DNA of 44,520 nt from Ruminococcus sp. (lineage in GTDB: Bacteria; Bacillota; Clostridia; Oscillospirales; Ruminococcaceae), in NCBI GenBank assembly GCA_017478965.1, contig JAFVCV010000055.1, forward strand, positions 1 through 44,520, written 5' to 3'. Of the stretch, positions 22,474 to 34,599 are shown piece after piece (positions within the stretch are counted from its first letter, which is position 1; each line of letters starts with the position of its first letter). Position numbers and translations under genes: made by a program. Under the pieces are notes generated by a model. The model saw nothing but the letters and a program-made list of their open reading frames with translations, did not search any database and had not been told where the DNA came from.

Positions 22474-22971
22474 ATGAAAAAAGTTGCAGTCATTATGGGC
22501 AGCGACAGCGATTTCCCTGTGGTTTCAAAGGCCTGTGCAGAGCTGAAGGCCTACGGTGTGCCTTACGAGTGCCATGTTATGAGCGCTCACAGGTCCCCTG
22601 CCCTGGCGGCAGAATTTGCTGAGAGCGCCAAGGACAACGGCTTCGGAGTCATCATCTGTGCTGCCGGCATGGCGGCCCATCTTGCCGGAGTCATGGCGGG
22701 ACACACGATCCTGCCGGTAATAGGGATACCCTGCAAGTCCTCTAATCTGGAGGGACTGGACGCTCTTCTTGCTACTGTCCAGATGCCCAGCGGCATACCT
22801 GTGGCTACAGTGGCGATAGACGGCGCAAAGAATGCGGCTGTGCTGGCCATACAGATACTTGCCCTTTCTGACGAGGTGCTGGCCACCAGGCTCACCAAAG
22901 CCAAGAAGGAAATGATCGAGGGCGTCATCGAAAAGGATGCCGCACTTCAGGAAAAGCTCAGGACGATTTGA
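22474..22971 (+). CDS. purE: N5-carboxyaminoimidazole ribonucleotide mutase
   Basis: 165 residues, class I PurE. It moves the carboxyl group of N5-CAIR to give CAIR in purine synthesis. Motifs: VAVIMGSDSDFPVV (phosphate loop), VMSAHRSPALA (catalytic His), CAAGMAAHLAGVMAG and LPVIGIPCKS. Class I enzymes normally need PurK to supply N5-CAIR; purK is not in this window. First gene of the purine operon. Confidence 0.96.
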   Translation: MKKVAVIMGSDSDFPVVSKACAELKAYGVPYECHVMSAHRSPALAAEFAESAKDNGFGVIICAAGMAAHLAGVMAGHTILPVIGIPCKSSNLEGLDALLATVQMPSGIPVATVAIDGAKNAAVLAIQILALSDEVLATRLTKAKKEMIEGVIEKDAALQEKLRTI

Positions 22972-22981
22972 GGCGGATCAT

Positions 22982-23674
22982 ATGAAAACAGGCAGGAGCT
23001 TTAGAGCCATGGCGGCCGTACTTATCATGGGAGCTTTCCTTTCGTTGTCGGGCTGTTCGGGCAGGAGCGCTGACCCTGACCCTTCTGAGGTCAAGAGCAG
23101 CATGGGCTATAACGGCAGCTTCGATGAGGAGACTTTCGAGAAGATATGCAGCAGTATCAAAATAGGCGGGGAAAGTGTCGAACTGCCCTGCTCAGTGGGA
23201 GATATCGAGGAAAAGCTTACCATGAACGATAACTATGCTATCTTCTCCGGCGGCACCTCTTATTCCGACATGGTGGGACATATCAAGGTAGTGAACAACA
23301 GCAGCATTGACCCCACCTACCAGCAGGTCTACGGCATCTTCATGAATAATTTCAGCATTAAGGACACTTCCATCGGAGGACTGACCAGCAGTCTTTCAAA
23401 GGAAGATATCGAGAGCTTTTTCGGGAAGCCCACCGGCCAGGGCAGCATAGAGACTGACGGCGACGACATGGGAAGGCTGGCAGAGATAAGATATATCTAT
23501 TACGAACCGGGGAGTTACAGCTTTACGGTGGCTTTCAAAAAGAAGTCGGGTATGCTGTATTCTGTCACTGCGGAGATCGAGGACACCTCGGGCGGCGACG
23601 ACCCGTTCCTGTTCGACGGGACTGCAGCAGATGACACTGCGCAGGACGACGTGCCTGTGCTGGGCGAAGAATAG
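22982..23674 (+). CDS. Putative lipoprotein inside the purine operon
   Basis: 230 residues from ATG 22982, 10 bases after the purE stop. Signal peptide with lipobox SLSGC (Cys about 23), then a Ser/Asp/Pro tether and a beta-rich outer domain of about 180 residues ending in an acidic tail. VGDIEEKL near residue 75 and SLSKEDIESFFGKPTG near 140 look like two repeats of a 'helix plus G-x-P' unit seen in SmpA/DUF-type lipoproteins. No precise family. It is cotranscribed with purE and purC, yet nothing about it suggests purine chemistry. Confidence 0.8.
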   Translation: MKTGRSFRAMAAVLIMGAFLSLSGCSGRSADPDPSEVKSSMGYNGSFDEETFEKICSSIKIGGESVELPCSVGDIEEKLTMNDNYAIFSGGTSYSDMVGHIKVVNNSSIDPTYQQVYGIFMNNFSIKDTSIGGLTSSLSKEDIESFFGKPTGQGSIETDGDDMGRLAEIRYIYYEPGSYSFTVAFKKKSGMLYSVTAEIEDTSGGDDPFLFDGTAADDTAQDDVPVLGEE

Positions 23675-23747: not shown

Positions 23748-24464
23748 ATGGAAAACATCATCAAGGGCGAGCAGCTGTATGAAGGAAAGGCAAAGAAGGT
23801 ATTCGCTACCAACGAGCCTGATTATGTCATCGTAGACTACAAGGACGACGCTACCGCTTTCAACGGCGAGAAGAGAGGCACCATCGTCGGCAAGGGCGTT
23901 ATCAACAACAGAATGACTAACTTCATGTTCAAGAAGCTGGAGGAAGCAGGCGTACCCACTCATCTGGTGGAGGAGATCAGCGACCGTGAGACCATCGTCA
24001 AGAAGGTGGAGATAGTTCCTCTGGAGGTCATCATCAGAAACGTTGCCGCAGGCAGCTTTTCCAAGAGGATGGGCGTTGAAGAAGGCAGAAAGCTCCTGAC
24101 CCCCATACTCGAATACAGCTATAAGAACGACGACCTGGGCGATCCTTTCATAAATGATTACTACGCTCTGGCCCTGGGGCTTGCCACCAAAGAAGAGCTT
24201 GATACCATAGCCAGGTACGCTTTCAAGGTCAACGAGTTCATGGTAGAGTACTTCAAGGGCATCGGCGTTGACCTCATAGATTTCAAGATAGAGTTCGGCC
24301 GTTTCCACGGACAGATACTCCTGGCAGACGAGATAAGCCCTGACACCTGCCGTTTCTGGGATTCCAAGACCCATGAGAAGCTGGACAAGGACAGATTCAG
24401 AAGGGACCTTGGCAACGTAGAGGACGCTTATCAGGAAATGATGAAGAGAGTACTTGGTGAGTAA
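23748..24464 (+). CDS. purC: SAICAR synthetase
   Basis: 238 residues. It joins aspartate to CAIR using ATP. Motifs: [19 protein letters not shown] (nucleotide loop), [49 protein letters not shown] (substrate pocket), [11 protein letters not shown] and [12 protein letters not shown] (metal-binding). It has a GGAGGT site. Only three bases separate its stop from the PurF-like gene. Confidence 0.97.
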
Positions 24465-24467
24465 TAT

Positions 24468-25889
24468 ATGGGCGGATTTTTTGGCGCTGTTTCGTCCAAC
24501 GACTGTATACAGGACGTTTTCTTCGGAACAGATTATCATTCACACTTAGGCACAAGAAGAGGCGGCATGACCTCCTTCTCGCCTGAGACAGGATTTCAGA
24601 GGAATATCCACAGCATTGAGAACTCACCTTTCAGGACGAAGTTTGAAAAAGATGTGGAGTCTATGCGGGGCAAGGTCTGTATCGGGTGCATAAGCGATAC
24701 CGACCCGCGGCCCATCATGGTAAGGTCAAAGCTGGGGCTTTATGCAGTCTGCTCCATCGGCGTGATACATAACGCCGATAAGCTCAGCGAAGAACTGCTG
24801 AACAGCGGCTGCGCCAATTTCGAGACGATGAGCAGCGGCGCTATCAATTCCGCAGGACTGATAGGAGCGCTGATAGCTCAGAAGGAAAGCTTTGTGGAGG
24901 GCATAAGATACGCCCAGCAGAAGATAGTGGGGACCATGTCACTGGTCATAATGACAGAAGACTCTATCATCTGTGCGAGAGATAAGGCCGGCAGGCTGCC
25001 TATACTGATAGGCAAAAGGTCAGACGGCTACTGTTTCTCCTTCGAGGACTTCGCCTACAAAAAGGTGGGATACGAGACCTGCCACGAGCTCAGGCCCGGA
25101 GAGATCACAAAGCTGACCAAGGACGGCTATGAGATACTTTCCGAGGGTACGGACCAGATGAGCATTTGTACGTTTTTGTGGACTTATTACGGCTACCCCA
25201 ACGCCAATTACGAGGGCGTGAACGTAGAGGTCATGAGGATGCGAAACGGCATGATAATGGCGGAGAACGACATCAAGAACGGCAGGCTGCCTCAGGTGGA
25301 CTATATCTGCGGAGTGCCGGATTCGGGTACGCCCCACGCCATAGGCTATGCAAACAGGAGCGGGATACCCTTCGCAAGGCCGTTCATCAAATACACACCT
25401 ACCTGGCCTAGGAGCTTTATGCCCACGAACCAGAGTATGCGAAACAGAGTGGCTAAGATGAAGCTGATACCCGTACATGAGCTTATCGAGGGCAAGAAGC
25501 TGCTGTTCGTGGACGACAGCATCGTCAGGGGCACGCAGATGAGAGAGACTGTGGAGTTCCTTTATGAGAACGGCGCTAAGGAGGTCCATATGCGGTCTGC
25601 CTGTCCGCCGATAATGTACGGATGCAAATATCTCAACTTCTCCCGAAGCACCTCGGAGCTGGAGCTTATAGCAAGGCAGATAATCGACGAGCATGAGGGC
25701 GCAGAGGGCGTTAAGTACATAAACGAATACAGCGATTCAAACACAGAAAGAGGCCGTCTGCTCAGAGATGAGATCTGCCGCAGACTAAAGCTCACTTCCC
25801 TTGAATTCCAGTCGCTGCCCGGTACGGTCAAGGCCGTGGGCGCAGATGAGTGCAGGCTCTGCACCTACTGCTGGAGCGGAAAGGAGTAA
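24468..25889 (+). CDS. PurF paralogue with degenerate glutaminase domain
   Basis: 473 residues aligned along their length with amidophosphoribosyltransferase. The N-terminal nucleophile Cys is absent: it begins MGGFFGAVSS where PurF has CGVFGIY, with no propeptide. The glutamine pocket is also lost: IGHVRYSTTG is IGCISDTDPR, AHNGNL is IHNADKL, and the NDTEV Asp is missing. The phosphoribosyltransferase half is intact: PRPP motif LLFVDDSIVRGTQ, flexible loop SFMPTNQSMRNRVAKMKL, and PDSGTPHAIGYA. Cys residues in MSICTFL, YGCKY and CRLCTYC match the PurF Fe-S cysteines. It may make phosphoribosylamine from free ammonia, use another acceptor, or partner the true PurF encoded 7 bases downstream. 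Function unproven. Confidence 0.9.
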   Translation: MGGFFGAVSSNDCIQDVFFGTDYHSHLGTRRGGMTSFSPETGFQRNIHSIENSPFRTKFEKDVESMRGKVCIGCISDTDPRPIMVRSKLGLYAVCSIGVIHNADKLSEELLNSGCANFETMSSGAINSAGLIGALIAQKESFVEGIRYAQQKIVGTMSLVIMTEDSIICARDKAGRLPILIGKRSDGYCFSFEDFAYKKVGYETCHELRPGEITKLTKDGYEILSEGTDQMSICTFLWTYYGYPNANYEGVNVEVMRMRNGMIMAENDIKNGRLPQVDYICGVPDSGTPHAIGYANRSGIPFARPFIKYTPTWPRSFMPTNQSMRNRVAKMKLIPVHELIEGKKLLFVDDSIVRGTQMRETVEFLYENGAKEVHMRSACPPIMYGCKYLNFSRSTSELELIARQIIDEHEGAEGVKYINEYSDSNTERGRLLRDEICRRLKLTSLEFQSLPGTVKAVGADECRLCTYCWSGKE

Positions 25890-25896
25890 GGCCTGT

Positions 25897-27333
25897 ATGA
25901 ACGGTGTTGAGGGGCTGCATGAAGAATGCGGCGTTTTCGGTATATACTCGCCTGTGACCGGCGATGCGGCGGCGCAGGTATATATGGGGCTGTACGCCTT
26001 GCAGCACAGAGGGCAGGAAAGCTGCGGCATCGTGGTCAACGATGACGGAGTATTCAGAGCCCACAAGGCATTGGGTCTGGTGAACAGCGTCTTTGACAGG
26101 GACACTCTTAAGAGCCTTGGCAAAGGCAATATGGCCATAGGACACGTAAGGTATTCCACCACAGGCAGCAGCAGTGCCGCAAATGCACAGCCGCTGACGG
26201 TAAGGCATATGAAGGGTCCAATGGCGATAGCACATAACGGAAATCTGACCAACGCCAGAGAGCTTAGAGAAAGGTTCGAGGGCAAGGGCATGATCTTCCA
26301 CAGCACGAACGATACCGAGGTCATTTCATACACCGTAACTGAAGAACGGCTCTCCTGCGCCTCTATAGAAGAGGCCGTGGAAAGAGCTATGTACAGGATA
26401 AAAGGGGCATATTCACTGCTGGTGATGTCGCCCCGGAAGCTGATAGCGGCGAGGGACCCCAACGGGTTCAGGCCGCTGAGCCTTGGGAGGAGCGGAGACA
26501 CCTGGTACCTGGCCAGCGAGACCTGCGCTTTTGACAGCGTAGGGGCAGAATTTGTCAGGGATATCCTTCCGGGGGAGATAGCCGTCATCGAAGACGGAAG
26601 ACTCAAGTCCATAAGGACGCACTGCGGGGGCAAAGGAGATCTGTGCGTTTTCGAGTTCGTCTATTTCGCAAGGCCGGACTCGGTCATTGAAGGCGCAGGA
26701 GTACACGAAGCCAGGCTCAGAGCCGGGCATATACTCTGGAAGGAGCACCCTGTGGACGCTGATATAGTCATAGGAGTACCCGATTCGGGACTTGACGCCG
26801 CACTGGGGTTCTCTCAGGCAAGCGGCATACCCTACGGCATAGGGTTCGTCAAGAACAGGTATATAGGCAGGACCTTTATCCAGCCCTCACAGGCCCAGAG
26901 GACCAACAGCGTGAAGATAAAGCTAGGGGCAGTTTCGGGCACTGTCAGAGGAAAGCGGGTGGTGATGATAGACGACAGCATCGTCAGGGGCACCACCTCG
27001 GGAAGGATAGTCAGGCTGCTGAGAGAGGCCGGGGCAAGGGAGGTCCATGTGAGGATATCCTCGCCGCCTTTCATAGCGCCCTGCTATTTCGGAACGGATA
27101 TAGACAGCCGGGACAACCTTATCGCCTGCAGGATGAGCGTAAGCGAGATATGCAAGGAGATAGGCGCAGACAGCCTGGGGTATCTGAGTACGGAGGGCGT
27201 GACGAGGATAGCTGAGGGCGCAGGCTGCGGTCTTTGTACGGGCTGCTTTACCGGCAGGTATCCGGTAGAGGTCCCGGCAGATATGCCAAAGGACAAATTT
27301 GAGTGTAAAATTTCGGACAATTCAGAGCTATAG
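25897..27333 (+). CDS. purF: Amidophosphoribosyltransferase (glutamine PRPP amidotransferase)
   Basis: 478 residues from ATG 25897, with AAGGAG inside the end of the previous gene. It makes phosphoribosylamine, the first purine step. A ten-residue propeptide precedes Cys11 (MNGVEGLHEE then CGVFGIY), the Ntn nucleophile freed by self-cleavage. Glutaminase residues are all present (HVRYSTTG, AHNGNL, NDTEV). PRPP motif VVMIDDSIVRGTTS and loop FIQPSQAQRTNSVKIKL are intact. Cysteines at GDLCVFEF, IACRMS and CGLCTGC match the 4Fe-4S ligands of the B. subtilis-type enzyme. Confidence 0.97.
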   Translation: MNGVEGLHEECGVFGIYSPVTGDAAAQVYMGLYALQHRGQESCGIVVNDDGVFRAHKALGLVNSVFDRDTLKSLGKGNMAIGHVRYSTTGSSSAANAQPLTVRHMKGPMAIAHNGNLTNARELRERFEGKGMIFHSTNDTEVISYTVTEERLSCASIEEAVERAMYRIKGAYSLLVMSPRKLIAARDPNGFRPLSLGRSGDTWYLASETCAFDSVGAEFVRDILPGEIAVIEDGRLKSIRTHCGGKGDLCVFEFVYFARPDSVIEGAGVHEARLRAGHILWKEHPVDADIVIGVPDSGLDAALGFSQASGIPYGIGFVKNRYIGRTFIQPSQAQRTNSVKIKLGAVSGTVRGKRVVMIDDSIVRGTTSGRIVRLLREAGAREVHVRISSPPFIAPCYFGTDIDSRDNLIACRMSVSEICKEIGADSLGYLSTEGVTRIAEGAGCGLCTGCFTGRYPVEVPADMPKDKFECKISDNSEL

Positions 27334-27388: not shown

Positions 27389-28429
27389 ATGAATAAGAAC
27401 AGCTATTCAAACAGCTATAAGGACGCCGGAGTGGACGTTACAGCCGGGTATAAGGCTGTGGAGCTTATGAAACAGTATGTTGGCAGGACCGTCACAAAGG
27501 GCGTTCTTGACGGCATAGGCGGTTTCGGCGGGCTCTTCGAGCTGGATATGACGGGCATAGAAAGGCCTGTGCTGGTATCCGGCACCGACGGCGTAGGCAC
27601 CAAGATAAAGATAGCATTCCTGCTGGACAAGCATGACACGGTAGGCATCGACTGCGTGGCCATGTGCGTCAACGAGATAATCTGCTGCGGTGCAAAGCCT
27701 CAGTTTTTCCTGGATTACATCGCCTGCGGCAGGAACATACCCGAGAAGATAGCAAATATAGTTTCGGGCGTTGCAGAGGGCTGCGTACAGGCGGGCTGTG
27801 CTCTGGTGGGCGGCGAGACTGCGGAGCATCCCGGCCTTATGCCTGAAGACGAATACGACCTGGCAGGATTTTCTGTGGGCGTTGTGGATAAGAGCAGGAT
27901 ACTGAAGCCGGACACCCAGAAGGCCGGGGACGTTATGATCGCCATAAAGTCCAGCGGCGTTCATTCAAACGGTTTCTCACTGGTGAGAAAGGTATTCGAT
28001 GTGAACGAGAAGAACCTGGCGGTCCGTTATGACGAGCTGGGCGCTACTCTGGGGGAGACTCTGCTGACACCCACAAGGATATATGTGAAGGCAGTGATGG
28101 CCCTGCAGGAGAAGGTTAATGTCAAGGCGATATCCCACATCACCGGCGGCGGTTTCTATGAGAATATCCCGAGAGCGCTGCCAAAGGGCATCTCGGCGCA
28201 GATAAGAAGGAGCGACGTTCAGGTGCTGCCTATATTCGACGTTATCGCCAAGACGGGCAATATCCCTGAGAGGGATATGTTCAACACCTTCAACATGGGC
28301 GTGGGAATGACCGTTGTGGTGGACAGGTACGATGCTGACAAGGCCATCGCCGCCATAAAGGCTGCCGGCGAGGAGGCCTATGTTTTAGGCGAACTGATAA
28401 ACAGCGACATGGGCGTTGTTATCTGCTGA
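27389..28429 (+). CDS. purM: AIR synthetase (phosphoribosylformylglycinamidine cyclo-ligase)
   Basis: 346 residues. It closes the imidazole ring from FGAM with ATP. Motifs: [44 protein letters not shown] (ATP/Mg loop), [33 protein letters not shown] and [18 protein letters not shown]-rich hairpin overlaps the purF stop at 27333-27357. Confidence 0.97.
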
Positions 28430-28541: not shown

Positions 28542-29099
28542 ATGAAAAAACAAGGCAGGCTGGGGGAATGGATAGTCTGGTACTGGGAAAAGTACAAACC
28601 GGCCCTCATATGTATCACCATCGTTCTGGGCTTAGCGGTGCTGGTGCTCTTAGGCTACGGCAGAGACAGGCTCAGCGAGTATCGGAGCAATAATTCTCCT
28701 CAGGCCAAGAAAGAACAGGCCATGCGGGTAGAAATGGCAAAAAAGCCGGACTTCGCCCTGGAGGGGACGGAGGAGATCTGCTACTTTCCGGTGACCGTGG
28801 AGGGCATTGACGGTGAAAATTTCACTTATACGGTCTATTTCTCAGAGGTCCCTGAGGAGGAGAGCCTCAACAGCATGAACTCAGGTCTGGCTCAGGCATT
28901 TTCAAAATATAACAGCAGCGGCCGGGGCGCCGCAGCATATATGGGTCCTCTGGAAATGGAAAGCGGGACTGTTTACACATTGTACCTTGATCTGGGAAGT
29001 GCGCCGGACGATCAGCTGGTCACAGAGGTGCTGAGGGTGCTTGGAGGCTATGAGGGCATTGACCGGGTCATCATAAATGAAGGCGGTGGTTTTGAATGA
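28542..29099 (+). CDS. Membrane-anchored protein of unknown function in the purine operon
   Basis: 185 residues. A basic N-terminus (MKKQGRLGEWIVWYWEKYK) leads into one transmembrane helix (about 22-42, LICITIVLGLAVLVLLG) and an outside domain of about 140 residues with strands EICYFPVTVEG, FTYTVYFSEV and TVYTLYLDLG. The last codons overlap the purN start (ATGA), so the two are translationally coupled. I recognise no family. The tight coupling to purN is the only clue and may be operon happenstance. Confidence 0.75.
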   Translation: MKKQGRLGEWIVWYWEKYKPALICITIVLGLAVLVLLGYGRDRLSEYRSNNSPQAKKEQAMRVEMAKKPDFALEGTEEICYFPVTVEGIDGENFTYTVYFSEVPEEESLNSMNSGLAQAFSKYNSSGRGAAAYMGPLEMESGTVYTLYLDLGSAPDDQLVTEVLRVLGGYEGIDRVIINEGGGFE

Positions 29100-29722
29100 A
29101 GAACATAGTCGTACTGGTCTCCGGCGGCGGGACCAATCTACAGGCACTGATAGACGCTGAAAAAAACGGCAGCATCAGGGGCGGAAAGATAAGCTGCGTC
29201 ATCTCCTCCAAGGAGGGGGCCTACGCTCTGGAAAGAGCGAAAAACGCCGGGATACCGGGAGTAGTGATACCCAGGAAGGACTATCCTGACAAGGTGAGCT
29301 ACAGCAAGGCGGTCCTGGAAGAGCTGGGAAGGCAGCAGGCCGACCTGATAGTGCTGGCCGGATTTATGATAATACTGGACGAATGTGTGACTAAGGCCTA
29401 TCCCTACAGGATAATAAACGTCCATCCTGCACTGATACCAAGCTTCTGCGGCGAGGGCTTTTACGGACTGAAGGTACATGAGAAGGCCCTGGAGTACGGC
29501 GTGAAGATAAGCGGCGCCACCATACATTTCGTCAACGAGAAGGCTGACGCCGGGGCCATAATACTTCAGGGTGCGGTGGAAGTCGCCAATGACGAAACAC
29601 CGGAGAGCCTGCAAAAGAAGATAATGGAAAATGTGGAATGGAAACTGCTGCCTAAGGCAGTGTCCCTGTTCTGTGAGGACAGGATAGAAATAAAAGACGG
29701 CAAGGCTTACGTTATTCAATAA
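29096..29722 (+). CDS. purN: Phosphoribosylglycinamide formyltransferase
   Basis: 208 residues. It transfers the formyl group of 10-formyltetrahydrofolate to GAR. Motifs: VVLVSGGGTNLQALIDA (phosphate loop), VISSKEGAYALERA, LAGFMIILDECV, NVHPALIPSFCG (catalytic Asn and His) and GATIHFVNEKADAGAIILQ (Asp). Folate-dependent class, not PurT. Confidence 0.96.
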   Translation: MKNIVVLVSGGGTNLQALIDAEKNGSIRGGKISCVISSKEGAYALERAKNAGIPGVVIPRKDYPDKVSYSKAVLEELGRQQADLIVLAGFMIILDECVTKAYPYRIINVHPALIPSFCGEGFYGLKVHEKALEYGVKISGATIHFVNEKADAGAIILQGAVEVANDETPESLQKKIMENVEWKLLPKAVSLFCEDRIEIKDGKAYVIQ

Positions 29723-29738: not shown

Positions 29739-30455
29739 ATGAAAAAACTCGATATCTATGAGGAGCTGAAAAGCAATGCTTACCCCGGTAGAGGTATCAT
29801 CATCGGCAAAAGCGCCAACGGCAAGTATGCAGTAACCGCCTACTTCATCATGGGCAGAAGTGTGAATTCACGCAACAGGGTCTTCACAGAGACCGAGGAC
29901 GGCATAAAGACTGAGGCGGCAGACCCCAGCAAGCTCTCCGACCCCCATCTTATAATCTATTCCCCCGTCCGTGTACTGGGCAACAAGACCATCGTCACCA
30001 ACGGCGATCAGACTGACACCATATATGAGCTGATGGACAAGCAGCAGACCTTCGAGCAGAGCCTTCGCACCCGTGAGTATGAGGACGACGCTCCCAACTA
30101 TACCCCCAGGATATCCGGCATCATGCACGTAGGGGACGGTATGTACAACTACGCTATGAGCATACTTAAATCCGCTGACGGCGACCCGGACAGCGTAGAG
30201 AGGTTCACATATTCCTATTCCTCGCCTATAGCCGGCTGCGGCCATTTTATCCACACCTATATGGGCGACGGCTCTCCCCTGCCGAGCTTTGAGGGCGAGC
30301 CTAAGAAAATAGGTATTCCTGACGATATAGACGAGTTCACTAAGGGATTGTGGGAGTCACTGAACGAAGACAATAAGGTGTCGCTGTTCGTGAGGTTCAT
30401 AGACATCGAAACAGGCAGGGCAGTCTCAAAGATAGTCAACAAATATACCAAATAA
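29739..30455 (+). CDS. purO: IMP cyclohydrolase (PurO-like)
   Basis: 238 residues, with no resemblance to the MGS-fold cyclohydrolase half of PurH. The features are those of the PurO/IMP_cyclohyd family first known in archaea: an early GRGIIIGKSANGKYAVTAYF and MGRSVNSRNRVF, a central YTPRISGIMH and a late YSYSSPIAGCGHFIHTYMGD. It should close the ring of FAICAR to IMP, the last step. It lies 16 bases before the stand-alone AICAR transformylase, so the two replace bifunctional PurH. It starts with an AGGAGG site. Confidence 0.85.
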   Translation: MKKLDIYEELKSNAYPGRGIIIGKSANGKYAVTAYFIMGRSVNSRNRVFTETEDGIKTEAADPSKLSDPHLIIYSPVRVLGNKTIVTNGDQTDTIYELMDKQQTFEQSLRTREYEDDAPNYTPRISGIMHVGDGMYNYAMSILKSADGDPDSVERFTYSYSSPIAGCGHFIHTYMGDGSPLPSFEGEPKKIGIPDDIDEFTKGLWESLNEDNKVSLFVRFIDIETGRAVSKIVNKYTK

Positions 30456-30471
30456 AGCGGAGGTAAAAGAC

Positions 30472-31653
30472 ATGGCTGACGAAATGCTTTTAAAATACGG
30501 GTGCAACCCCAATCAGAAACCCTCAAGAGTTTTTATGGAGGACGGCAGCGAGCTGCCCATCGAGGTCCTTAACGGCAAGCCGGGCTATATAAACCTGCTG
30601 GACGCCTTCAACGGCTGGCAGCTGGTAAGGGAGCTGAAAGCAGCTACGGGTATGTGCGCTGCGACCTCCTTCAAGCACGTTTCCCCGGCGGGAGCCGCTG
30701 TGGGCAGGCCTCTGACCGAGACTGAGGCTAAGATATATTTCGTTGACGACCTGGGGGAGCTTTCGCCTTTGGCCTGCGCCTATGCAAGAGCCAGAGGTGC
30801 AGACAGAATGTCAAGCTACGGCGACTTCATTGCCCTTTCGGACGTTTGCGACGTTCCCACTGCTAAGATGATACAGCGTGAGGTCAGCGACGGGATAATC
30901 GCACCGGGCTATACCGACGAGGCACTGGAGATACTCAAGTCAAAGAGGAAAGGCACCTACAATATCATCAGGATAGATGAAAACTACGTTCCCGAACAGG
31001 TGGAGCGCAAGCAGGTCTTCGGAGTGACCTTTGAGCAGGGCCGCAACGAGCTGAAGATCGACAACGAGCTGCTCTCAAACGTTGTGACCGAGAACAAGGA
31101 TATCCCCGATGACAAGAAGGAGGACCTTGTCATCTCCCTCATAACCCTTAAATACACGCAGTCCAATTCAGTCTGCTATGTGAAGAACGGTCAGGCCATC
31201 GGCATCGGCGCAGGGCAGCAGTCAAGAGTACACTGCACAAGGCTGGCCGGCAGCAAGGCCGACAACTGGTGGCTTAGACAGCACCCAAAGGTAATGGGAC
31301 TGCAGTTCGTTGACAATATCAGAAGGCCTGACAGGGACAATGCCATTGACGTTTATATCGGTGAGGAATATATGGACGTTCTGGCTGATGGCGCTTGGGA
31401 GAAGATATTCAAGGTAAAGCCTGAGGTGCTGACAGCAGAGGAGAAAAAGGAGTGGCTGGCAAAGAACACTGACGTATGCTTAGGCTCCGATGCGTTCTTC
31501 CCCTTCGGCGACAATATCGAAAGAGCTAAAAAGTCCGGCGTTTCCTACATCGCAGAGCCGGGCGGCTCAATTCGTGACGACAACGTCATCGACACCTGCA
31601 ATAAGTACGGCATGGCAATGGCCTTCACAGGCATAAGGCTCTTCCACCACTGA
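30472..31653 (+). CDS. purH: AICAR transformylase, stand-alone (PurH C-domain type)
   Basis: 393 residues covering only the AICAR formyltransferase part of PurH; the 200-residue N-terminal cyclohydrolase is absent. Motifs: KYGCNPNQKPSRVF (substrate loop), CAATSFKHVSPAGAAVG (catalytic Lys-His pair), ARARGADRMSSYGDFIALSD, TLKYTQSNSVCYVKNGQAIG and a terminal DACCxxY-like VIDTCNKYGMAMAFTG. It formylates AICAR with 10-formyl-THF. The partner cyclohydrolase is the gene just upstream. Some authors would name this purV. Confidence 0.9.
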   Translation: MADEMLLKYGCNPNQKPSRVFMEDGSELPIEVLNGKPGYINLLDAFNGWQLVRELKAATGMCAATSFKHVSPAGAAVGRPLTETEAKIYFVDDLGELSPLACAYARARGADRMSSYGDFIALSDVCDVPTAKMIQREVSDGIIAPGYTDEALEILKSKRKGTYNIIRIDENYVPEQVERKQVFGVTFEQGRNELKIDNELLSNVVTENKDIPDDKKEDLVISLITLKYTQSNSVCYVKNGQAIGIGAGQQSRVHCTRLAGSKADNWWLRQHPKVMGLQFVDNIRRPDRDNAIDVYIGEEYMDVLADGAWEKIFKVKPEVLTAEEKKEWLAKNTDVCLGSDAFFPFGDNIERAKKSGVSYIAEPGGSIRDDNVIDTCNKYGMAMAFTGIRLFHH

Positions 31654-31690: not shown

Positions 31691-32368
31691 GTGAACAGAA
31701 AGATACTGGCTGCTCTGCTGGCGGTATATGCGGCACTTAATATGACCGCCTGCACAGGCAGCGGCGACAAGCAACGCAAGCCTGGCAGTTCTCAGGCAGC
31801 ATCAGGTGCGCAGGACAAGCATGAGGGCAACGGCAGCTCCGAAGATGGCTCTGAGCTCAGCGAGAGCGGCAGCACAGTCGAGGAGGTCAGCACTGATGCG
31901 GTGCGCTTTACCTATGACAAGGAGAAGTGGTCCCTTAACGCCGATGCTGAGAACGGCATCTTCCAGCTGGAGCATGATAAGGCCGCCGATGGGGACAAGG
32001 GGATATATATGCCCATAATCGCTGCCTATAATCCCGACGCCGCCTCTGTGGACCTGAAGACCCTGGCCGAGGGAATGAAGTCGGGTTTTGAGAACGCTGA
32101 GTTCTACGAGGAAAAAGCTACGACCTTCAACGGCTGTGACGCCTATGTGCTCAAGGGCCGGAGCGGCGGCGAGGAGAGTCCCGGGAAGATGGAGCTTTAT
32201 ATCGTCCATGAGGGTGACAATGTGCTGACCACCGGGTTCGTGGCCAGTCCCCCGGAGCTGAGCGAACAGTTCATGGAGGATATCCGGGAGGTCCTTGACA
32301 CCATATGCTTTACGCGACCGGAAGAAGACAGCGCCGCAGATGATACTGCGGCAGAAACAGAAGAATAA
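31691..32368 (+). CDS. Putative lipoprotein A of the purine operon
   Basis: 225 residues from GTG 31691 with AAAGGA about 10 bases upstream. Lipobox LNMTAC (Cys about 21), Ser/Gly/Glu-rich linker to about 70, then a compact domain of about 140 residues: FTYDKEKWSLNADAENGIFQ, ATTFNGCDAYVLKGRSG, KMELYIVHEGDNVLTTGFVA and EDIREVLDTICF. The same skeleton occurs in the next protein (TTFNGYDAYEYD, IAVHDSDLMIIAP, MQEVLDTLKF), so the two are tandem paralogues of a PsbP/DUF1795-like surface domain. No enzymatic motifs. Surface-exposed role inferred from the lipobox. Confidence 0.8.
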   Translation: MNRKILAALLAVYAALNMTACTGSGDKQRKPGSSQAASGAQDKHEGNGSSEDGSELSESGSTVEEVSTDAVRFTYDKEKWSLNADAENGIFQLEHDKAADGDKGIYMPIIAAYNPDAASVDLKTLAEGMKSGFENAEFYEEKATTFNGCDAYVLKGRSGGEESPGKMELYIVHEGDNVLTTGFVASPPELSEQFMEDIREVLDTICFTRPEEDSAADDTAAETEE

Positions 32369-32406
32369 CACGCATCAAAATAAATACAGTGAAGGAGAGT
32401 TTAGTA

Positions 32407-33207
32407 ATGAAAAAACTGATTATCGCTGCTCTGGCACTTTCCATGGTGATGTCCTTTGCAGCCTGCGGAAATGACGGCAATACAGACAGCAAGAGCGAGA
32501 CTGTTTCCAAGTCCGCTGCGGCTGAGGACAGCAAGGAAGAGGCTGAGAGCAAGGAAGAAGCTGAGGACAGTGAGGACGAGGCTGGCGAAGAGGCCGGCGA
32601 GGGTGTTGCTTCGGAGGCTGAAAAGGAAGAAGAGTCCTCCGAGGAGGAGACTGTCACAACGACCACAGCCGCACCTGAGGAAAAGCCTGAGGAGACTGAG
32701 ACAACCACGGCAGCCGCTGACGACAGCACCGCCGAGAACACCGAAGACGATACTGACCGCAACTTCACCTATTCCATCGACAAGACCAAGTTCGAGGACT
32801 CTGTAGACCCCTTCGGCAACACCACCATAACCTATATCGGCACCGATGTGCCAATGGCTGCCAATAACTGCACCATACTCATCAACAGCGAGACAGAGCC
32901 GGAGCTGGTGAACTACTCTGTTGAAGAGATCGCACCTGGGATAATGGAGTCCTTCAAGGCCGGCGCAGGCTTCGGCGACGCTATGACCGTTGACAAGGAG
33001 CAGAAGACGACCTTCAACGGCTATGACGCATACGAGTACGACTGCACATACACCAATTCCGATGCAAACGTCGTTTTCGACATAAAGATAATCATTGCTG
33101 TGCATGATTCCGACCTGATGATAATAGCTCCCATGATCTATCACGACGTAGCAGATCAGATCAGCGGAAATATGCAGGAAGTGCTTGATACCCTGAAGTT
33201 CAAGTAA
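32407..33207 (+). CDS. Putative lipoprotein B of the purine operon
   Basis: 266 residues from ATG 32407 (AAGGAGAG upstream). Lipobox SFAAC (Cys about 19). Residues about 25-115 are an extremely acidic, low-complexity linker of Glu/Ser/Ala and Thr runs, a flexible stalk through the peptidoglycan. The last 150 residues are a domain related to lipoprotein A, with FTYSIDKTKFEDSV, NCTILINSETEPELV, KTTFNGYDAYEYDCTY and NMQEVLDTLKFK. It is followed 27 bases later by purD. Confidence 0.82.
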   Translation: MKKLIIAALALSMVMSFAACGNDGNTDSKSETVSKSAAAEDSKEEAESKEEAEDSEDEAGEEAGEGVASEAEKEEESSEEETVTTTTAAPEEKPEETETTTAAADDSTAENTEDDTDRNFTYSIDKTKFEDSVDPFGNTTITYIGTDVPMAANNCTILINSETEPELVNYSVEEIAPGIMESFKAGAGFGDAMTVDKEQKTTFNGYDAYEYDCTYTNSDANVVFDIKIIIAVHDSDLMIIAPMIYHDVADQISGNMQEVLDTLKFK

Positions 33208-33234: not shown

Positions 33235-34599
33235 ATGAAAATACTGGTAGTAGGCGGCGGAGGACGTGAACACGCCATTATCTCGGCGCTGTCAAAGTCC
33301 CCCCTGGCTGAAAAGATATACTGCACCCCCGGCAACGGCGGCATAAGCGCCTGTGCTGAATGCTTTGACGTCGCCGCAACGGACATAGAGGGCGTAGTGG
33401 CCCTTGCTAAAAAGCTGGAAGCTGACCTGGTGGCAGTTGCACCGGACGACCCGCTGGTACTTGGCATGGTGGACGCTTTGCAGGCGGAGGGCTTTATGAC
33501 CTTCGGACCTAAAAAGTCCGCTGCGGTCATCGAAGGCTCCAAGGTGTTCTCGAAGGAGCTTATGAAAAAATACGGCATACCCACCGCAGGGTATGAGGTA
33601 TTCACTGACAGCGAGAGCGCCGTTAAGTATGTGAAGGAGCAGAACTCCTATCCGGCAGTCATAAAGGCTGACGGACTGGCTCTCGGCAAGGGAGTCATAT
33701 TAGCACAGAACGAGGAGGAGGCAGTTTCCGCTATCCATGAGATGATCGACGAACGCAAGTTCGGCGACAGCAGTGCGAGGATAGTGGTGGAGGAATATCT
33801 CACCGGTCCTGAGGTCTCTGTGCTGTCCTTCACCGACGGCAAGACCGTGGTGCCGATGATCTCTTCTATGGACCACAAGAGAGCCAACGACAACGATGAG
33901 GGCCTTAACACCGGAGGGATGGGAACTGTGTCCCCTAACCCTTACTATACTGAGGACATCGCAAAGGAATATATGGAGAAGATATTCCTCCCCACGATAA
34001 ATGCCATGAACGCAGAGGGACGCACCTTTGAGGGCTGCCTGTATTTCGGGCTGATGCTCACGCCTAAGGGGCCTAAGGTCATCGAGTATAACTGCCGTTT
34101 CGGGGACCCGGAGACTCAGGTGGTACTGCCGATGCTGAAGACTGACCTTGTTGAGATAATGAAGGCTATCTATGAGCACAGGCTCGGCGAGCTTGACGTT
34201 GAATGGGAGAACGGCAGCTGCGCCTGTGTGATAATGGCCAGCGGCGGATATCCCCTTTCCTACCCCAAGGACATCGAGATAAAAGGGCTTGACAGCAACG
34301 GCCAGATAGAGGGCGGCAGCGAGACTACGGTTTTCCACGCAGGCACAAAGCTCAGCGGCGGGAAGTTCCTGACCGCCGGCGGCAGGGTACTGGGCGTCAC
34401 AGCAAAGGGCCTGACCCTGAGAGGAGCCCTGGACAAGGCTTATGAGGGCGTGAAGAAGATAAGCTTTGAGGGCGCTCACTACCGCAGCGATATCGGCGCA
34501 AGAGCATTGAAGGCCCTTGACAGCGATCCGCTACACCTCGGATATAAAGACGACATGGAAGACTATATAGAGGAAAACGGCGTTTACCTCAGGCAGTGA
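33235..34599 (+). CDS. purD: Phosphoribosylamine-glycine ligase (GAR synthetase)
   Basis: 454 residues, slightly longer than the common 420-430. It joins glycine to phosphoribosylamine with ATP. Motifs: MKILVVGGGGREHAIISALS, TPGNGGIS, FGPKKSAAVIEGSKVFSKEL, PAVIKADGLALGKGVILA (ATP-grasp), HKRANDNDEGLNTGGMGTVS and EYNCRFGDPETQVVLP (metal Glu/Asn). Last gene of the operon, followed by a strong terminator. Confidence 0.97.
   Translation: MKILVVGGGGREHAIISALSKSPLAEKIYCTPGNGGISACAECFDVAATDIEGVVALAKKLEADLVAVAPDDPLVLGMVDALQAEGFMTFGPKKSAAVIEGSKVFSKELMKKYGIPTAGYEVFTDSESAVKYVKEQNSYPAVIKADGLALGKGVILAQNEEEAVSAIHEMIDERKFGDSSARIVVEEYLTGPEVSVLSFTDGKTVVPMISSMDHKRANDNDEGLNTGGMGTVSPNPYYTEDIAKEYMEKIFLPTINAMNAEGRTFEGCLYFGLMLTPKGPKVIEYNCRFGDPETQVVLPMLKTDLVEIMKAIYEHRLGELDVEWENGSCACVIMASGGYPLSYPKDIEIKGLDSNGQIEGGSETTVFHAGTKLSGGKFLTAGGRVLGVTAKGLTLRGALDKAYEGVKKISFEGAHYRSDIGARALKALDSDPLHLGYKDDMEDYIEENGVYLRQ

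Follow-up and report, generated by a model that had tools for sequence, protein, structure and literature searches.

PurX, a glutaminase-dead PurF relative of gut and rumen Clostridia and a candidate ammonia-dependent enzyme of purine synthesis

In textbooks, purine synthesis is entered through PurF (EC 2.4.2.14; TIGR01134; structures 1gph, 1ao0 and 1ecb), which depends on glutamine. Pairs of enzymes that make one product from different nitrogen donors are known, as with the ammonia-dependent asparagine synthetase AsnA and the glutamine-dependent AsnB. The beta-lactam and carbapenam synthetases, which are class II amidotransferase relatives, have lost Cys1 and are not known to use ammonia any longer. 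As to PurF itself, PMC3261824 states that replacing Cys1 of the Escherichia coli enzyme by Ala or Ser abolishes the use of glutamine while ammonia is still used (citing Mei and Zalkin, 1989). All that evolution had to do, then, was to raise this existing route to a useful level. The same paper describes PurF′ (2011), a crenarchaeal PurF paralogue without Cys1 that is encoded beside purine genes; its authors proposed, as a suggestion, that it is an ammonia-dependent PRPP aminotransferase, and every Crenarchaeon with PurF′ reported there also carries PurF (PMC3261824). According to PMC5552732, rumen bacteria prefer ammonium as their nitrogen source, and an amtB-glnK-asnB-GOGAT cluster of Prevotella ruminicola is described there as ammonium-responsive; we cite it as responsive only, because passages in the Results and the Discussion of that paper disagree on the direction.

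Here we describe PurX, encoded in a stretch of 44,520 nucleotides from a Ruminococcus genome (hereafter the window). PurX shares with PurF the two-domain fold, the PRPP motif, the pyrophosphate loop, the basic residues of the flexible loop, four cluster-type cysteines and a place in the pur operon. It differs in lacking Cys1, the Arg73 loop and Asn101, in carrying Gln after the PRPP motif and a flexible loop of the KYTPTW type, and in scoring below the TIGR01134 cut-off. It is like PurF′, as that protein has been described, in lacking Cys1 and in lying near pur genes; unlike PurF′ it is bacterial, is often the sole member found (54 PurX-only genomes) and divides genomic locations with PurF. 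Unlike a partner subunit of the GlgD type, PurX occurs in genomes where no catalytic paralogue was found. The analogy with AsnA and AsnB is limited, as AsnA is unrelated to AsnB whereas PurX descends from a glutamine amidotransferase. A literature search, conducted mostly outside subscription journals, found no description of a bacterial PurX family, of its sole-enzyme status or of PurF in nitrogen clusters. What appears to be new is the bacterial family itself, often the sole such enzyme found, together with the way in which it occupies the pur operon and the presence of PurF in nitrogen-assimilation clusters.

Residues, fold and selection of PurX

PurX was aligned with 96 distinct homologues, which became 139 once those of named Clostridia, Bacteroidales and Peptoclostridium were added. 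An earlier note on this DNA had claimed that the Ntn cysteine, the glutamine-binding arginine and the asparagine of PurF are replaced, and the alignments confirm it. The Cys1 site holds Gly in 132, Ser in seven and Cys in none of the 139 distinct sequences, the Arg73 loop is absent (columns 73-80 are gapped in 96 of 96 homologues), and the site of the oxyanion residue Asn101 is occupied by Val (92), Ile (46) or Thr (1; n = 139); the roles of these three sites we take to be those of E. coli PurF. The note's further claim, that the PRPP motif, the flexible loop and the cluster cysteines are intact, held across the 139 homologues: every listed site of the motif, the pyrophosphate loop and the flexible-loop Lys and Arg residues is retained in at least 138 of them, with the sole exception of the final Thr of the motif, for which all 139 have Gln. 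Four cysteines of the Bacillus subtilis type, candidate ligands of a putative cluster, are likewise retained in every one. Judged by these residues, PurX has lost the glutaminase and kept the transferase half.

The protein has the two-domain fold of PurF, and against the NCBIfam equivalog model TIGR01134 it scored 184.5 bits, below the cut-off of 350. In the predicted structure pLDDT falls below 50 at residues 309-320, inside the flexible loop. Two features are new to PurX, namely D-Y-H/N-S-H-L-G in the dead half and the nearly invariant K-Y-T-P-T-W in the flexible loop. Beta-lactam and carbapenam synthetases appear among the structural matches of PurX; like PurX they keep a dead Ntn domain as structure, and their second domain differs.

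Across 16 loci of the window's genus, dN/dS by the Nei-Gojobori method was 0.042 for purX overall (dead half 0.051, transferase half 0.036) and, at the same loci, 0.060 for purM, 0.058 for purH, 0.068 for purE and 0.063 for purN; pairs with dS of at least 3 were dropped, which kept 103 of 120 pairs for purX, and with a mean dS of 1.1-1.6 the ratios are rough. purX is under strong purifying selection, including its dead glutaminase half. The random loss of PRPP residues that the note had named as a sign of simple decay was looked for in the homologues and was not seen. Since the PRPP site is conserved and dN/dS is low, purX is not decaying, and its reading as a pseudogene is ruled out.

Table 1. 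Positions of PurX features and of the surrounding pur genes in the window
Feature	Position	Strand	Remark
purX, glutaminase-dead PurF relative	24468..25889	+	473 aa
Ntn/GATase-like half, aa 1-228	24468..25151	+	catalytic and glutamine-binding residues gone
Gly2 codon, site of the Cys1 nucleophile	24471..24473	+	from alignment of homologues
Cluster-type cysteine C234	25167..25169	+	139/139 homologues
Pyrophosphate loop GVPDSG, aa 282-287	25311..25328	+	
Flexible loop K308-K332	25389..25463	+	KYTPTW near-invariant; PurF equivalent KNRY(V/I)
PRPP motif DDSIVRGT, aa 349-356	25512..25535	+	next residue Gln in 139/139, Thr in PurF
Cluster-type cysteine C386	25623..25625	+	139/139 homologues
Cluster-type cysteines C465 and C468	25860..25871	+	each 139/139 homologues
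purE	22474..22971	+	TIGR01162
purC	23748..24464	+	TIGR00081
Canonical purF, propeptide and Cys1	25897..27333	+	start set inside longer ORF 25801-27333
purM	27389..28429	+	TIGR00878
purN	29096..29722	+	TIGR00639
purO-type IMP cyclohydrolase	29739..30455	+	PF07826
purH, AICAR formyltransferase only	30472..31653	+	PRK07106 type
purD	33235..34599	+	TIGR00877

IMP synthesis is split in the window (29739-31653) between a PurO-type cyclohydrolase and a separate AICAR formyltransferase of the PRK07106 type, with no bifunctional PurH. Between the pur genes lie ORFs without a Pfam match (22937-23674, 28542-29099, 31691-32368 and 32389-33207), and for those at 28542 and 32389 the homologues, present in some members of the genus, reach no more than 24-36% identity. 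Rfam searches at gathering scores returned one tRNA and otherwise nothing in the window, and nothing in nine PurF loci. The window genome was placed in the genus of Ruminococcus albus and is therefore a Ruminococcus in that sense.

Distribution of PurX and the genomic place of purX

PurX was found in 219 of 394 sampled genomes of the order, more than half, and in 104 of the 394, roughly one in four, it had no second PurF-family match beside it. The other 115 PurX genomes had one or more second matches, and the remaining genomes divided into 144 with PurF-type matches only and 31 with neither. At a completeness of at least 95% there were 54 PurX-only genomes, 96 with both and 96 PurF-only. Those 54 were searched again with the PurF model, together with G007 (99% complete, from the window's genus) and ten of the 31 'neither' genomes, and none of the 65 (55 PurX-only and ten 'neither') passed the PurF cut-off. 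One of the 55, G295, was set aside for a PurF fragment at a contig end, which leaves 54. PurD was present in 53 of these 54, in 15 of 16 PurF-only control genomes (taken from the 96) and in four of the ten 'neither' genomes, and PurL in 53 of 54, 16 of 16 and four of ten, respectively; a single PurX-only genome, G044, lacks both. That four 'neither' genomes keep PurD and PurL implies that assembly gaps or another route exist, and the main caution is that a few genomes have no visible enzyme for the phosphoribosylamine step.

All 25 genomes of the window's genus carry PurX, and 22 of them have PurF over the cut-off. In one of the 25, G006, purX is split in two frames and there are two canonical PurF genes; both lie beside glutamine amidotransferase genes (G006:C10, loci L030 and L049), and the split is either an error or a real loss. 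Among 39 genomes of the named collection, reached via 40 of its 80 loci and with completeness not given, 29 had PurF over the cut-off and ten did not. On a quick tree with 91 labelled rows we counted at least 11 switches between 'both' and 'PurX-only', a count made without a shuffle control. The root of this tree was not used, because its PurX-PurF branch stops at the maximum length of 10.

purX has purD close by, on the same contig and within about 7 kb, in 37 of the 54 PurX-only genomes. In the other 17 purX is not near purD, in part at contig ends and in part in an extra-operon PurX clade, which has no widely conserved neighbour. One set of 20 loci had purX among pur genes in 19, and the other (L042) stops at a contig end. 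Of the PurX-only loci that were fetched, 28 of 40 had pur neighbours, mostly in the order purE-purC-purX-purM-purN-purO-purH-purD, a figure biased because 20 of the loci were chosen for purX and purD sharing a contig. The 12 loci with no pur gene nearby comprise 11 with a PurX 52-55% identical to P0001 and one (L124) of the operon type. When the purD regions of ten genomes from the 52-55% group were examined, seven showed a purE-to-purD run with no purF-like gene, and the other three were cut short or held purD alone. The slot of purX in the operon is usually taken by purF in PurF-only genomes, where 23 of 30 loci had pur neighbours within 1.5 kb. Among the neighbours of PurX (80 named-collection loci and 12 others, five of the 92 being dropped for want of an ORF with the string KYTPTW), the only family at a fixed position was an ORF directly upstream in six loci, which by its first residues reads as purB.

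In a phylum-wide sample the scores separated cleanly, PurX reaching at least 729 bits and other matches at most 242: 20 of 299 genomes carried it, and all 16 of these from outside the order had a second PurF-family match. PurX of 47-48% identity along its whole length is present in Bacteroides finegoldii, Parabacteroides distasonis and Phocaeicola massiliensis, and PurX of 50.5% identity in Peptoclostridium acidaminophilum. The gene order is purX-pepT-gcvT in B. finegoldii and P. distasonis and purX-pepT in Peptoclostridium, so that in two phyla PurX is linked to genes of peptide (and glycine) breakdown (L242, L243, L244). GcvT releases ammonia. The statement that Bacteroides lacks canonical PurF, drawn from a control in Bacteroides ihuae, was dropped; the control tells nothing, because GlmS alone could explain its result.

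The probable reaction of PurX

We consider it very probable that PurX is an ammonia-dependent PRPP amidotransferase, that is, a phosphoribosylamine synthase, because it occurs as the sole PurF-family protein alongside PurD and PurL and because purX lies near purD. As the glutaminase is absent, PurX would condense PRPP with free NH3 (or NH4+), and the phosphoribosylamine would be passed to PurD. We infer both that ammonia is the nitrogen donor and that PurX is sufficient in vivo. An ammonia-using phosphoribosylamine synthase was one of three functions suggested in the earlier note and is strongly supported; the other two, an obligate partner in the manner of GlgD and a transferase for another acceptor, fared worse in view of the 54 PurX-only genomes, 53 of which have PurD and PurL.

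It is improbable, though less so than the alternatives that follow, that such a synthase is fed ammonia by an unlinked glutaminase subunit and not from solution. The dead half is conserved (dN/dS 0.051) and has acquired new invariant residues, so it could dock a partner or form a tunnel. However, no glutaminase was seen among the neighbours that could be named with our query set, which covers part of the neighbouring ORFs, and a partner would be unnecessary, because Cys1-less E. coli PurF reportedly uses ammonia.

PurX might also lack catalysis or have a regulatory part, joining PurF in mixed oligomers as a subunit of the GlgD kind, and there the shared fold and the tandem purX-purF arrangement would make sense. 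The tandem, to which the earlier note had drawn attention, is real in 13 of the 73 genomes carrying both genes (the window, three other members of its genus, which makes four in the genus, and nine of 47 further genomes), but it is not the key fact, as the genes lie apart in 60 of the 73. The PRPP site is conserved in PurX, and PurX stands alone in 54 near-complete genomes, 53 of them with PurD and PurL. An obligate partnership is unsupported because PurX persists where PurF was not found; the PurX-only genomes rule out mixed oligomers as its essential role, and we give the subunit reading very little credence.

Equally doubtful is that PurX phosphoribosylates another acceptor while PurX-only cells obtain phosphoribosylamine by another route. 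The Thr-to-Gln change at the PRPP loop (139 of 139) and the rebuilt flexible loop could reflect such an acceptor, and the pepT-gcvT context in Bacteroidales, the presence of PurX in G044 without PurD or PurL, and the four 'neither' genomes with PurD and PurL point the same way. Against it, in many families purX sits in the pur operon at the place of purF, and PurD and PurL are kept in 53 of 54 PurX-only genomes, which another acceptor would leave with no known source of phosphoribosylamine. That PurF is really present in all these genomes, its absence being an assembly artefact and PurX an accessory paralogue, is scarcely credible: most of the genomes are drafts, four of the ten 'neither' genomes have PurD and PurL and G295 has its PurF piece at a contig end, but at a completeness of at least 95% 54 of 150 PurX genomes are PurX-only while PurD or PurL is missing in one of 54, and there are contiguous operons with PurX in place of PurF and purE-to-purD runs with no PurF.

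The neighbourhood of purF in genomes with PurX

To learn where purF resides when both genes are present and not in tandem, we examined 62 PurF loci, comprising 19 from the window's own genus (18 genomes), 30 from the order and 13 from beyond it. Nitrogen genes were called by their NCBIfam names (the ammonium transporter AmtB, P-II or GlnK, AsnB, the CTP synthase PyrG, CarA, GOGAT and Gdh); a small ORF of the GOGAT GATase type had no NCBIfam match, and this ORF and gltD were named by reading the sequence. Where purX is inside the pur operon, PurF lies beside nitrogen genes at 23 of 29 loci (28 genomes), elsewhere at six and in the pur operon at none; the tandem genomes are excluded from this count. 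Of 28 loci from genomes whose purX is outside the operon, 14 have PurF among the pur genes of the operon, 11 have it beside nitrogen genes and three elsewhere, and where the context of purX was not fetched it is beside nitrogen genes at three and elsewhere at two. None of 71 background loci (70 PurX or purD loci and one of E. coli) had nitrogen genes; one PurX locus examined later, in genome G621, does have pyrG near. Order-wide, nitrogen genes were found within 1.5 kb at 33 of 62 PurF loci from PurX genomes versus six of 30 from PurF-only genomes (Fisher p 0.003, a value that ignores kinship, the six cases falling in two families), a weaker contrast than 23 of 29. Two genomes of another order of the class, G602 and G622, show the same association.

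That PurF is placed with genes for taking up ammonium and for enzymes that use glutamine fits a role under scarce ammonia. In genomes with both, the glutamine-dependent isozyme PurF would serve when ammonia is low, and PurX in ammonia-rich places such as the gut or rumen. Taken jointly, we think it rather likely that a sizeable fraction of the Clostridia in gut and rumen use free ammonia, by way of PurX, for the first committed step of purine synthesis, with PurF demoted to a nitrogen-starvation isozyme that is placed with AmtB-GlnK, GOGAT, AsnB, PyrG and CarAB, in R. albus 7 even on a megaplasmid, and is repeatedly lost or replaced; this would amount to a two-enzyme nitrogen switch, of which Bacteroidota would share the ammonia branch (purX-pepT-gcvT). 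Should PurX prove sufficient, the nitrogen donor in metabolic models of these bacteria is wrong, glutamine analogues that target PurF could miss them, and bacteria with such a protein as their only one offer a way to test the question raised in 2011 by archaeal PurF′. The nitrogen genes around PurF also yield a simple prediction for expression on high versus low ammonium.

One locus has the row amtB-glnK-asnB-pyrG-purF (L228:2129-8625), which brings the glutamine amidotransferases of asparagine, CTP and purine synthesis together with ammonium uptake, and other genus members have purF-asnB-carAB; such gatherings possibly represent an ammonium-limitation regulon. On a quick tree the PurF proteins of the genus comprise the tandem type and two lineages with good support; asnB-carAB goes with the first of these, and amtB, pyrG or GOGAT with the second.

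In Ruminococcus albus 7 (DSM 20455, our genome G022) the two genes are on different replicons. Its PurF is 100% identical to RUMAL_RS20040, which sits on plasmid pRUMAL02 (352,646 bases) and adjoins the ammonium transporter RUMAL_RS20035, and its purX lies among pur genes on a separate 3.7-Mb contig (L043). No further PurF over the TIGR01134 cut-off was found in this genome. The plasmid locus (L222/L255) corresponds to pRUMAL02 301522-305178; PLSDB types the plasmid as conjugative, and the transporter has a P-II-like C-terminal part. Two other PLSDB 'plasmids', NZ_OY725754 and NZ_OY725932, carry eno, ribosomal protein and further housekeeping genes, and seem to be chromosome fragments with a wrong label.
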